From contig DURL01000110.1 in NCBI GenBank assembly GCA_012837345.1, forward strand, positions 32,842 to 96,841: a stretch of DNA of 64,000 nt. The letters run 5' to 3'. Position numbers and translations under genes: made by a program. Origin of the DNA: Bacteroidales bacterium (GTDB taxonomy: Bacteria; Bacteroidota; Bacteroidia; Bacteroidales; Dysgonomonadaceae). The notes under the pieces were generated by a model. The model worked only from the letters and a program-made list of their open reading frames with translations, was not told where the DNA came from and ran no database searches. This document shows positions 20,384 to 24,694 of this stretch, piece after piece; position 1 is the stretch's first letter; each line of letters opens with the position of its first letter.

Positions 20384-21157
20384 TTACCTGATGTTCTCCC
20401 TGACCTGCTGCAGGTAGGCCTTCATCCCTTCACTGTCTTTCATCTCGATGATGGCCAACAGCTCTTTGAGCTTCTCCCTGATATGAGTCAGCTGTCCCGG
20501 TGTATAGGGGTTGAAAAGGATCTCGGTAAGCAGGAAGTCATCTTCCGAGAGCAGTCCCTGGGCGATCTGCATATGCTTCTTGAAGGTGGTGCCGGGTGCA
20601 TCCTGATGCTTCATCACCGAAGCAAACACCAGGGTGGAGGCAAAGGGGATGGAGAGCGAGTAGGCGATGGTCTCGTCGTGCTCACGGAATGAGTATTCAA
20701 ACACGTTCAGCTTCAGGTGCCGGTAGAGATCGCGGAAGAAGACCTTACCCAGGTGCGATGATTCGGCAATGATGATGGCACTCTGACTACTCAGGTCGTT
20801 CAGGCTGGCAAAGGTGGGCCCGAACATGGGGTGTGTGGAGACATAGGGGCGGGTGCGTTCCCTGTAGAACTCTTCCAGTCCGGTTTTCACCGAAGCTATA
20901 TCACTCAGAATACATGTTTCCGGAAGAAAAGGCAACACCTTCTCGAATGCAGGAATAGTATATTTAAGTGTAGCGGCATTGATCACCAGCTCCGGTGCAA
21001 ATGCCTGCACCTCCATCGGATCGGTCATCCGCTGTGTGTTGTAGATAAACCGCAGCTTCTGCGGATCGGTGTCAAGCACCGCCACCTCGTGGTCGAAGCT
21101 AAGCACATCGGCAAAGAAGGAACCCATCTTGCCGGCTCCAAGGATCAGTATCTTCAT
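20384..21157 (-). CDS. tyrA: Prephenate dehydrogenase
   Basis: MKILILGAGKMGSFFADVL (Rossmann); SDIASVKTGLEEFY; STHPMFGPTFASL. Confidence 0.85.
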   Translation of the reverse strand: MKILILGAGKMGSFFADVLSFDHEVAVLDTDPQKLRFIYNTQRMTDPMEVQAFAPELVINAATLKYTIPAFEKVLPFLPETCILSDIASVKTGLEEFYRERTRPYVSTHPMFGPTFASLNDLSSQSAIIIAESSHLGKVFFRDLYRHLKLNVFEYSFREHDETIAYSLSIPFASTLVFASVMKHQDAPGTTFKKHMQIAQGLLSEDDFLLTEILFNPYTPGQLTHIREKLKELLAIIEMKDSEGMKAYLQQVRENIR

Positions 21158-21175: not shown

Positions 21176-22246
21176 TTACTTTTTTGCTTTCTCCATTACC
21201 ACCATCTGCTGACGCACCGACTCGGAGTGGATCGCCTCCAGCACCTTCTTCACAAAGCCGCCCGACATCTCCATCCGCTCACCCTGGTAGGCACGATCGG
21301 TGAGGATCTGGTCGTAACGCTGTGTCTGCAGGATCGGCATGCCATGCTCCAGCTTGTAATGACCGATCTCGCGGGAGACACGCATACGCTTGGCCAGCAG
21401 CTGCAGCAGCTCATTGTCCAGGTCATCGATCTGGTCGCGCAGCACCGAAAGATCCTCGGTAGTCTGCACCGTATCACGGATCACGATGGTGTCGAGAATC
21501 TCCTTGAGTGCCGCGGGTGTGACCTGCTGTGCCTTGTCGCTCCACGCTTCATCGGGAGAGCTGTGTGACTCGATGATCAGTCCCGAATAGTTGAGGTCCA
21601 TGGCCTGCTGACTGATCTTGAAGATCAGGTTGCGTGCACCGCCTATATGACTGGGGTCACAGATCATCGGCAGGGTGGGAAAGCGCCGTTTCAGCTCGAT
21701 GGGGATATGCCATTGCGGGATGTTACGGTAAATGGTTTTATCGGTGGTGCTAAAGCCGCGGTGTATCACCCCCAGCTTACGGATGCCCGCATTGTAGAGT
21801 CGCTCCAGTGCCCCGATCCATAGTTCCAGGTCGGGGTTCACCGGGTTTTTGATCAGGATGGGGATGTCCACTCCCTTGAGGGTATCCGCTATCTCCTGCA
21901 CGGCAAAAGGGTTGGCAGCGGTACGTGCTCCTATCCAAAGGATATCGACCCCATACTTCAACGCCTCATAGACATGTTTCTCGGTAGCTACCTCGGTGGC
22001 CATATACATACCGGTCTCCTTTTCCGCCTGCATCATCCACTTGAGAGCAGGGCTGCCGACACCTTCAAAGCCGCCTGGTTTGGTACGGGGCTTCCAGACC
22101 CCTGCACGAAATATTTTCACCCCCACAGCTGCCAGCTCCCTGGCGGTGGTCATTACCTGTTCTTCTGTTTCGGCACTGCAGGGACCCGCAATCACCAGCG
22201 GTCTCTTCGCGTCAATGCCCGGCAATAAAATCGATTCGAATTCCAT
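21176..22246 (-). CDS. Bifunctional DAHP synthase / chorismate mutase
   Basis: VIAGPCSAETEEQVMTTARELAAVGVKIFRAGVWKPRTKPGGFEGVG (DAHPS), then LRDQIDDLDNELLQLLAKRMRVSREIGHYKLEHGMPILQTQRYDQI (chorismate mutase). Confidence 0.93.
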   Translation of the reverse strand: MEFESILLPGIDAKRPLVIAGPCSAETEEQVMTTARELAAVGVKIFRAGVWKPRTKPGGFEGVGSPALKWMMQAEKETGMYMATEVATEKHVYEALKYGVDILWIGARTAANPFAVQEIADTLKGVDIPILIKNPVNPDLELWIGALERLYNAGIRKLGVIHRGFSTTDKTIYRNIPQWHIPIELKRRFPTLPMICDPSHIGGARNLIFKISQQAMDLNYSGLIIESHSSPDEAWSDKAQQVTPAALKEILDTIVIRDTVQTTEDLSVLRDQIDDLDNELLQLLAKRMRVSREIGHYKLEHGMPILQTQRYDQILTDRAYQGERMEMSGGFVKKVLEAIHSESVRQQMVVMEKAKK

Positions 22247-22295: not shown

Positions 22296-22431
22296 AATCC
22301 TCAAATCACCACATCCTCACATCCTCACATCAGCTAATCAGCTAATCATCACATCAGCTAATCAGCTAATCATCACATCCTCAAATCAGCCAATCAGCTA
22401 ATCAGCTAATCACCCAATCCTCACATCATCG
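22296..22431. repeat. Tandem octamer array, 17 units, consensus close to MATCMKCW (ATCAGCTA / ATCATCAC / ATCCTCAC variants)
   Basis: AATCCTCA AATCACCA CATCCTCA CATCCTCA CATCAGCT AATCAGCT AATCATCA CATCAGCT AATCAGCT AATCATCA CATCCTCA AATCAGCC AATCAGCT AATCAGCT AATCACCC AATCCTCA CATCATCG; 8-nt phase never breaks. Confidence 0.93.
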
Positions 22432-23601
22432 AATATACTCCTCAATCCGTCTGTAAGCCTCCTGTAGCTTCTCCGCGGAGGCACCCAGCGAGATGCGGAT
22501 AAACCGTTCCCCGTTGCTGCCGAAGATAAAGCCGGGTGTGAGAAATACCCGTGCTCTCTGCAGAAGATCGTTGACCAGCGCTTCGCTGCTCTCCGTCTCT
22601 GCCGGCAGCTTACCCCAGACGAACAATCCCACCTGCCGGGGATCGTAGCTACAACCCAGCAGCAGCATGATCTTCTCAGCCCAGCTACGGCGCTCACGAT
22701 AGATACGGTTCATCCCGGCATGCCACTCATCACTATTTGAGAGTGCAGCCACCGTCGCCAGCTGCATCGGTTTGAACTGACCGCTGTCGATGTTGCTTTT
22801 GGCCTTGAGCACCCACTGTACGAACTGTGCGTTGGATGCCAGCATCCCCATGCGCCATCCCGACATGTTGTGCGACTTGCTCAGTGAGTTGAGCTCGATG
22901 CATATCTCCTTTGCTCCCGGCACGGAGAGGATGCTCATGGGTCTGTCGTTCAGGATAAAGCTATAGGGGTTATCATGACAGATCACGATGTTGTGTTTCC
23001 TGCCAAAAGCCACCAGCTTCTCGAACAGTTCAGGAGAGGCGTTCGCGCCGGTAGGCATATTGGGATAGTTGACCCACATCAGCTTCACACGGCTCAGATC
23101 CCTTTTCTCCAACGCCTCAAAGTCGGGCTCCCACCCCTTCTCTTCCAGCAGGTCATACTCCATCACCTCTGCCCGCAACAGCTTCGACACCGAGCGATAG
23201 GTGGGATAACCGGGGTTGGGCACCAGTACCGCATCTCCGAAGTTGAGGAAGGTCATCGAGACATGCAGGATACCCTCTTTCGAGCCGATCAGCGGCAGCA
23301 CCTCGGCAGCTGTCAGCTCCACTCCGTAGATACGGTGATACCACTCTCCGTAGGCTCTCCTCAGCTCCGGGATACCGGTATAGGGCTGGTAGGCATGCAC
23401 ATCGGGTCGTTGCACTGTTTCACAGAGTGTCTCGATGGTCTCCTGCGATGGCATCCGGTCCGGGGCTCCCACCGCCAGGCTGACCACATCCCGCCCTTCG
23501 GCATTCATGCGTGCTACCTCGGCCAGCTTTACCGAGAAATAATACTCTTCAATTGCTTTGATATGTGTTGCCGGTTCAATCATCTTCATAGTTCTTCTCA
23601 T
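22426..23601 (-). CDS. PLP-dependent class I/II aminotransferase (aromatic operon)
   Basis: VVSLAVGAPDRMPSQETIETL; VLVPNPGYPTYRSVSKLL; ELNSLSKSHNMSGWRMGMLA (PLP Lys). Start among nearby Met codons uncertain. Confidence 0.88.
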   Translation of the reverse strand: MRRTMKMIEPATHIKAIEEYYFSVKLAEVARMNAEGRDVVSLAVGAPDRMPSQETIETLCETVQRPDVHAYQPYTGIPELRRAYGEWYHRIYGVELTAAEVLPLIGSKEGILHVSMTFLNFGDAVLVPNPGYPTYRSVSKLLRAEVMEYDLLEEKGWEPDFEALEKRDLSRVKLMWVNYPNMPTGANASPELFEKLVAFGRKHNIVICHDNPYSFILNDRPMSILSVPGAKEICIELNSLSKSHNMSGWRMGMLASNAQFVQWVLKAKSNIDSGQFKPMQLATVAALSNSDEWHAGMNRIYRERRSWAEKIMLLLGCSYDPRQVGLFVWGKLPAETESSEALVNDLLQRARVFLTPGFIFGSNGERFIRISLGASAEKLQEAYRRIEEYIR

Positions 23602-23611
23602 TTCATTTTAT

Positions 23612-24460
23612 TCACTTCTCTCCTGAATTCTTTTCTTCCCTGTACTCGCCCAGCACCTTTAGGTTACTGATCAGCGGAGTGATGGCGTCGATCGACTGTT
23701 TGTAACGCTGATAATCGGAAAAGGTGAGATCGATATAAAATTGATACTCCCACTCGCTACCAATGATGGGGAGCGATTGGATACGGGTCAGGTTGACACC
23801 ATAGAAGGAGAGCACCGAGAGCACCTTCGATAGCGACCCCTCGCTGTGTGGCAGGACAAACACCAGCGATGACTTGTTGATATGATTCGCCTTCTGCACC
23901 TCCCGGAGCATCTCCTCACGTGCCAGGATAAAGAAACGGGTGAAGTTACGCTTGTTGGTCTCAATGCCTGCCGCAAGAATCTCCAACCCGTACATATCCG
24001 CCGCCAGCCGGCTGCAGATGGTGGCCGTACCTCTCATCTCCCGCTCACGAATCTCTTTTGCAGCCAGGGCGGTATCATCATGCTCCACAATCTTGATGCC
24101 CGGCAGTTCATCCAGGAACTCCTCACATTGCATCAGTGCCATGGGATGTGACATCACCTCTCTCACCTCACCGAGAGCAGTGCCCGGTAGAGCTGCCAGG
24201 GTATGGGTGATTCGCAGTTTGTATTCACCGGCGATCTGCAGACGGTGCTGTTTCAACAGATCATGGTTGGGCAGCAGACTGCCCGCAATGGTATTCTCAA
24301 TGGCCATCACTCCTATCAACTGCGGATCATTGTCCGCTTCGGTGAAGATCTCACGGAATGTTTGACAGGGAACAATTTCCAGCTCCTCCCCTTTGAAATA
24401 GTCGCGTGCCGCGATCTCGTGATAGGCTCCCAGTCCACCCTGTATAGCTACTCTTTTCAT
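23612..24460 (-). CDS. pheA: Prephenate dehydratase with C-terminal ACT domain
   Basis: VAIQGGLGAYHEIAARDYF; GVMAIENTIAGSLLPNHDLL; TRFFILARE; SLVFVLPHSEGSLSKVLSVLSFYGVNLTRIQSLPIIGSEWEYQFYIDL (ACT). Confidence 0.93.
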   Translation of the reverse strand: MKRVAIQGGLGAYHEIAARDYFKGEELEIVPCQTFREIFTEADNDPQLIGVMAIENTIAGSLLPNHDLLKQHRLQIAGEYKLRITHTLAALPGTALGEVREVMSHPMALMQCEEFLDELPGIKIVEHDDTALAAKEIREREMRGTATICSRLAADMYGLEILAAGIETNKRNFTRFFILAREEMLREVQKANHINKSSLVFVLPHSEGSLSKVLSVLSFYGVNLTRIQSLPIIGSEWEYQFYIDLTFSDYQRYKQSIDAITPLISNLKVLGEYREEKNSGEK

Positions 24461-24489: not shown

Positions 24490-24523
24490 AAAAAAAATCC
24501 CATCGTGTGATCGACAGGATTTT
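24490..24523 (-). terminator. Attenuator terminator in the pheA leader (mutually exclusive with the antiterminator)
   Basis: On minus: AAAATCCTGTCG-atcaca-CGATGGGATTTTTTTT; 12-bp stem with two G.U pairs, followed by a U-run; ends about 29 nt before the pheA ATG. Confidence 0.88.
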
Positions 24524-24577
24524 ATTTTTATCTGATATGACTTTTTAATTTCTTCTCATTTTGCATATAAAATCCTG
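24515..24577 (-). promoter_or_regulatory. Antiterminator pairing: CAGGATTTTAT (24577-24567) with ATAAAATCCTG (24525-24515)
   Basis: 11-nt perfect complementarity on the minus-strand RNA; the 3' arm is also the 5' arm of the terminator. Confidence 0.82.
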
Positions 24578-24580
24578 CCC

Positions 24581-24637
24581 CTACCTGCTAAAGTAAAAGT
24601 AAAACCAGAAAGAAAATGCAAATACAGAATTGTTCAC
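24581..24637 (-). CDS. Aromatic-rich leader peptide MNNSVFAFSFWFYFYFSR (GTG start)
   Basis: Minus codons GTG AAC AAT TCT GTA TTT GCA TTT TCT TTC TGG TTT TAC TTT TAC TTT AGC AGG TAG; 6 Phe, 2 Tyr, 1 Trp within 11 consecutive codons. Confidence 0.82.
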   Translation of the reverse strand: MNNSVFAFSFWFYFYFSR

Positions 24638-24665
24638 TTTGTTATTATTTCGTGATGATAGAGTG

Positions 24666-24694
24666 CAAATGTACAATAAATTTTAATCACACAA
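24666..24694 (-). promoter_or_regulatory. Putative promoter TTG-N18-TACATTTG of the phe leader/operon
   Basis: Plus strand CAAATGTA 24666-24673 and CAA 24692-24694; matches Bacteroidetes TTG-N(about 19)-TAnnTTTG; 28 nt upstream of the leader GTG. Confidence 0.65.

Follow-up and report, generated by a model that had tools for sequence, protein, structure and literature searches.

A putative Phe/Tyr leader-peptide attenuator upstream of the pheA operon, recurrent across the Bacteroidia

The locus analyzed here lies in a window of 64,000 nucleotides (contig DURL01000110.1 of the Bacteroidales assembly GCA_012837345.1) and raises the question of whether the DNA between the promoter and the first gene of an aromatic amino acid operon can read the supply of the operon's products and, if so, of which products and by what means. 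The operon comprises four genes:

23612..24460, minus strand: pheA, prephenate dehydratase, the inferred first regulated gene (PF00800, E 1.3e-55)
22426..23601, minus strand: class I/II aminotransferase (PF00155, E 6.2e-58)
21176..22246, minus strand: DAHP synthase with a C-terminal chorismate mutase (DAHPS/CM; PF00793 and PF01817)
20384..21157, minus strand: tyrA, prephenate dehydrogenase (PF02153, E 1e-07; NF006409, E 1.8e-18, below the curated cut-off)

We find that this pheA-aminotransferase-DAHPS/CM-tyrA operon is very probably controlled by a ribosome-mediated attenuator that would sense charged tRNA-Phe and tRNA-Tyr, and the evidence for it comes from the element's anatomy, its conservation and covariation, its spacing and its folding in models. 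Read on the minus strand, the region 5' of pheA contains a promoter, a GTG-started leader ORF, antiterminator arms and an intrinsic terminator, an anatomy that the earlier note on this DNA had already laid out with all coordinates right to the base. Together with arm 1, which the note lacks, the parts are:

24666..24694, minus strand: promoter of Bacteroidota type, TTG-N18-TACATTTG (TAnnTTTG -7 box), assigned by consensus match
24581..24637, minus strand: leader peptide ORF, GTG start, MNNSVFAFSFWFYFYFSR-TAG, with control codons F12, Y13, F14, Y15 and F16
24616..24622, minus strand: outer part of arm 1 (UUUGCAU), within the leader ORF, pairing with 24566-24560 (98% of cells paired, n=30)
24597..24610, minus strand: inner part of arm 1 (UUCUGGUUUUACUU), leader codons 10-14, pairing with 24586-24573 (97% of cells paired)
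24560..24586, minus strand: arm 2 region, forming the 3' strand of the 1:2 hairpin and including the antiterminator arm CAGGATTTTAT at 24577-24567
24515..24525, minus strand: arm 3 (ATAAAATCCTG), shared by the antiterminator (as its 3' strand) and the terminator (as its 5' strand); for 2:3, 98.2% of cells are paired
24490..24523, minus strand: intrinsic terminator (3:4), 12-bp stem, 6-nt loop and U-run (99.7% of cells paired)

The promoter consists of TTG at 24694-24692, an N18 spacer and TACATTTG at 24673-24666, with the GTG following 28 nt on, at 24637. Among the 30 congeners, 25 have a -33/-7 match no more than 80 nt before the leader, compared with 0.4% of shuffles, and PMC9723704 gives TAnnTTTG as the Bacteroidota promoter consensus. 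Nine of 11 consecutive leader residues are Phe, Tyr or Trp, and GGG directly follows the TAG stop. The leader region of the minus strand folds far more stably than its shuffles (z-score -4.4), and a terminator scan places the stem at 24523-24494 and the U-run up to 24490, with the ATG of pheA 29 nt further, at 24460. A 7-codon ORF, ATGACAAACCAGATAAAAAAATGA (24480-24457, minus strand), whose TGA overlaps this ATG, may have arisen by chance.

The pairing scheme of these arms is that of a switch. ATAAAATCCTG is the exact reverse complement of CAGGATTTTAT, and antiterminator (2:3) and terminator (3:4) are mutually exclusive through their use of arm 3. Consensus folding of the 30 congeners also reveals a 1:2 hairpin that the earlier note had overlooked. 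Its inner helix joins codons 10-14 (UUC.G.UUUUACUU) to AGGUA..G.C.GGA, spanning the last codons, the stop and the beginning of arm 2, and its outer helix joins UUUGCAU to AUGCAAA; the whole overlaps the control codons, excludes 2:3 and is paired in 97.3% of cells. With this hairpin, the full set of four arms of the classical attenuator is present.

A PheA search in relatives yielded 30 Proteiniphilum loci with full upstream DNA, and all of them retain the leader start, the aromatic core, the stop and each of the three pairings. Sixteen of these loci start with ATG and 14 with GTG, at the same position, which supports the reading of GTG as the start codon in the window, and both the stop (TAA, TGA or TAG) and the FYFYF core are found in 30/30. 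In none of the 30 do the 20 nt preceding the start contain a Shine-Dalgarno-like 4-mer; this segment is A-rich instead (55% vs 34%), as expected for initiation in the Bacteroidota. Residues F6, A7, F12, Y13, F14, Y15, F16 and R18 are invariant, and at seven of these positions (F6, A7, F12, Y13, F14, F16 and R18) a single codon is used throughout, whereas in the PheA protein itself none of 16 invariant Phe/Tyr columns keeps one codon. This fixation points to a constraint at the RNA level added to that on codon identity, such as would follow from the codons doubling as arm 1. The pairings differ in the kind of support they receive. Substitutions in 2:3 include an A-U to G-C exchange, 3:4 has two double-change pairs, and changes in arm 3 have their counterparts in arms 2 and 4 alike; the compensatory exchanges in 2:3 and 3:4 recur in a set of 23 sequences drawn from several families, and arms 2 and 3 are joined by a linker of variable length. 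Changes in 1:2 are wobble or one-sided, with no double-sided case among the 30, and the support for this helix in the alignment is conservation, not covariation. The leader codons and alternate pairings on which the earlier note had staked its interpretation are thus kept in every congener, and the attenuator element is under selection.

To operate as proposed, the element must place the stalled ribosome correctly, and this can be read from the distance between codons and arms. We assembled 126 regions with leader and terminator from 54 families (as labelled in the genome collection searched), and scanned the sequence that follows the final aromatic codon for the complement of the terminator 5' arm. 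Leader, terminator and antiterminator recur across these families, the antiterminator being significant at p<=0.05 in 104/126 regions and at p<=0.01 in 71/126. In 90% of the regions, compared with 25% of shuffles, arm 2 starts 7-16 nt past this last Phe/Tyr codon. The median distance observed, 11 nt, is about that shielded by a stalled ribosome from the A-site codon to the leading edge. At a stop codon, coverage of up to 12 nt downstream is stated in PMC4833913. Leader, terminator, antiterminator, 1:2 hairpin and spacing, the sequence marks of this mechanistic class, are all in place, in support of the attenuation layout proposed in the earlier note.

Folding with the ribosome footprint in place gives a consistent picture for the stage at which arm 4 has yet to emerge. 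The probability of 2:3 is close to 1 with the ribosome at each codon from F12 to F16 in 30/30 sequences, and antitermination is predicted at Arg18 or the stop in 0/30. In the window sequence the predicted switch persists at the completion of arm 4, and a leader left untranslated is predicted to end in termination. When arm 4 is included, folding at equilibrium does not show the switch in all relatives, as the co-transcriptional stage does: with a 10-nt footprint, the terminator is favoured at the Phe/Tyr codons in 13-22 of the 30. Since equilibrium favours the terminator in many relatives, the switch would need 2:3 to be kinetically trapped, that is, to form first.

From these observations we infer an order of events in which tRNA sensing would govern the whole operon. 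RNA polymerase would transcribe the leader while a ribosome translates it. When Phe- or Tyr-tRNA is scarce, the ribosome would wait within the FYFYF run, occupying arm 1 and blocking 1:2, with its front edge just short of arm 2; the free arm 2 would then capture arm 3 ahead of the synthesis of arm 4, and transcription would proceed into pheA. When both tRNAs are charged, the ribosome would advance to Ser17, Arg18 and the stop, covering arm 2 and leaving arm 3 to pair with arm 4, which would end transcription. A leader that is not translated would form 1:2 and terminate by default.

The breadth of the element was established in two ways. A covariance model built from the 30 Proteiniphilum sequences and run on Bacteroidales genomes matches 122 of 394; among its best 29 matches outside the own genome, 26 precede pheA, two fall at contig ends and the remaining one is found before an aminotransferase-DAHPS-tyrA operon. 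Independently of this model, a protein search for pheA across the order and the phylum gave 140 upstream regions, and a leader was defined as a short ORF with at least six Phe or Tyr in 11 codons. Such an ORF precedes pheA in 82/91 regions of other Bacteroidales, in 30/32 of other Bacteroidia orders and in 4/17 of other classes of the phylum (116/140 overall). Adding 26 regions found with the leader model (166 in total), the leader is present in 142/166, compared with 12/166 on the reverse strand and 13/830 shuffles. It is found at 75 of 80 named loci, two of the five misses having incomplete upstream DNA, and in taxa such as Bacteroides fragilis (MNVFTFTYYFFFYFYFSQKVEREFVCIK), Parabacteroides distasonis, Dysgonomonas and Alistipes. 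Judged from these sequences, the leader is conserved in nearly all Bacteroidales sampled. The four leader-bearing regions outside the Bacteroidia (L189, L190, L191 and L192) encode PheA proteins 42-46% identical to that of the window, above most others outside the class, and horizontal transfer of operon and attenuator is possible in their case. At seven loci (L036, L050, L051, L100, L101, L156 and L157) the terminator ends 130-235 nt before pheA, the usual distance being about 20-50 nt, and a second element or a small ORF may lie in between.

The question of which amino acids are read bears on the alternative closest to our reading, namely that leader and terminator are real and the signal is tRNA-Phe alone, with the Tyr codons as passengers. 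Enteric pheA leaders do sense Phe, and the last aromatic codon is Phe in 92/126 leaders. Against this, the core codons comprise 614 Phe, 461 Tyr and 16 Trp, Tyr thus accounting for 461/1075 of the Phe/Tyr codons; Y13 and Y15 do not vary in the 30 congeners; and the operon, through tyrA, makes Tyr too. Family f28 also speaks for separate signals. Its aromatic operon is split (L291-L295, L074, L075, L311, L312), the aminotransferase-DAHPS/CM-tyrA unit carrying a Tyr-rich leader (STFAYFYYYFYF and similar) in 5/5 genomes and the separate pheA a Phe-only leader (FRFFFFFAFFF) in 2/4 genomes and none in the other two. Small as the sample is, this would fit a sensing of Phe and Tyr by the very units that make them. 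We therefore regard a Phe-only signal as unlikely; both Phe and Tyr appear to act as control codons, and Tyr looks like a true control residue. Trp does not: beyond its 16 core codons, W11 is replaced by G or R in 11/30 congeners. Of the aromatic residues that the earlier note counted in the leader, Tyr, which it named as a possible signal only, thus gains weight, and Trp does not look like a control residue.

The remaining alternatives assign the signal to something other than codon charging, or do away with it. The strong conservation of the core residues, together with the fixation of their synonymous sites, could be expected of an arrest peptide, whose aromatic nascent chain would stall the ribosome from within the exit tunnel, a free metabolite perhaps being the trigger and codon charging secondary. 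Yet pairing of arm 1 explains the synonymous fixation, and across families the order of Phe and Tyr is free (FYFYF, FFYYF, YYFFY) but their composition is preserved, as is the spacing to arm 2, a pattern that fits codon counting and not a single arrest sequence; the presence in the own genome of a His-rich leader before hisG and a Trp-containing one before trpB likewise argues against an arrest peptide, which we hold to be highly improbable. We give still less credence to two further explanations. A metabolite-binding riboswitch or T-box, with the ORF incidental, would be in keeping with the structured, strongly folding 5' region, but no Rfam riboswitch or T-box model reaches threshold in the window or in 14 representative loci, the leader ORF and four arms account for the RNA without an extra conserved aptamer-like domain, and the linker between arms 2 and 3 is variable; such a sensor is extremely improbable. 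Just as hard to credit is a constitutive terminator next to a chance or unrelated small ORF, with expression arising from read-through or another promoter. U-rich, AT-rich upstream DNA can indeed yield chance Phe codons, as the reverse strand illustrates, but at a rate far below that of the leaders observed, and chance would not account for the conserved start and stop or for an antiterminator at fixed spacing.

The attenuator that we favour would work by a familiar mechanism. At gathering score, Rfam returns only a tRNA for the window (no T-box, riboswitch or Phe_leader), and at E up to 10 it returns sub-threshold matches only, the best being Phe_leader (RF01859; 28 bits vs a gathering score of 55, E 0.01 in a 401-base search). 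The 14 representative loci stay below threshold for every family. The earlier note could not say whether such a leader had been catalogued, and in Rfam no family covers the Bacteroidota pheA leader. Like the enterobacterial pheA (pheL) element described by RF01859, the window element has a Phe-rich leader ORF, 1:2, 2:3 and 3:4 pairings and a terminator before pheA; unlike it, it has mixed Phe/Tyr codons and no Shine-Dalgarno-like motif, its operon adds DAHPS/CM and tyrA, and its host belongs to the Bacteroidota. Multivalent enteric attenuators, such as those of thr and ilvGMEDA, combine in a single leader the codons of two or more end products of their operon and resemble the window leader in this respect, but differ in amino acids, operons and sequences.

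In the literature that we searched for a Phe/Tyr leader in the Bacteroidota, only two general hints were found. Work on Flavobacterium psychrophilum from 2021 (PMC9723704) reports signs of leader-peptide attenuation ahead of operons for amino-acid biosynthesis, together with structured 5' elements of pheA and hisG that are kept across the Flavobacteriaceae and have no Rfam hits. Its pheA element shares phylum and gene with that of the window, and these elements likely overlap our loci from other Bacteroidia orders; unlike the present analysis, the main-text passages on them contain neither a leader sequence nor arms, nor a survey of the Bacteroidales. In Bacteroides thetaiotaomicron, some long 5' UTRs hold sORFs reminiscent of attenuation leader peptides (PMC7366714, from 2020), leader-like as in the window, but the example given is BT_4401 and the word "phenylalanine" is absent from the main text. 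In sum, the mechanism is textbook and attenuation in the Bacteroidota was already suspected, but the element itself is uncatalogued and unusually widespread. A comparative attenuator survey by Lopatovskaya et al. from 2010, cited in PMC4833913, may already include Bacteroidetes cases.

Leaders of the same general kind were observed before other operons. In the own genome, MKANWFHHHHFHTCSQAS lies 167 nt before the hisG start (G000:C165, L286, minus strand), with five His, four of them consecutive, and is followed by a terminator, CCCGTCTGAAGAGCATCAGGCGGG plus a T-run, before hisG. A Trp leader with a terminator, MTNILVNGYWWRCLQLTSRKE, lies upstream of trpB (G000:C51, L063/L287/L289), where Rfam likewise gives no family above threshold for L063, and similar Trp leaders occur in other Bacteroidales (L297, L298, L299 and L300: MRTILVNTYWWRYLQLTKS, MKTSLFNAYWWRCLQLQKS, MKKMSKILCANWWWLFKLQQKW and MNLTVVNKFWWWRLQLQRS). 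No branched-chain leader was found upstream of ilvD, where the spacer consists of short repeats, and the R1 matches at C24:63515-63720 (both strands) and C204 proved on reading to be ordinary terminators.

Considering the dual Phe/Tyr leader of pheA, present in nearly every genus having the operon, and its sister his and trp leaders, we lean towards the view that attenuation is class-wide and probably ancestral in the Bacteroidia. If so, it would define a leader peptide and RNA family missed by Rfam in Bacteroides fragilis, Parabacteroides, Dysgonomonas, Alistipes and others, and abundant gut and environmental bacteria would control aromatic amino acid synthesis through the position of the ribosome. 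Class-wide attenuation would further imply a tight coupling of transcription and translation despite the largely Shine-Dalgarno-independent initiation of the phylum, and the attenuator would then constitute a natural reporter for whether RNA polymerase and ribosome are closely coupled in the Bacteroidota.
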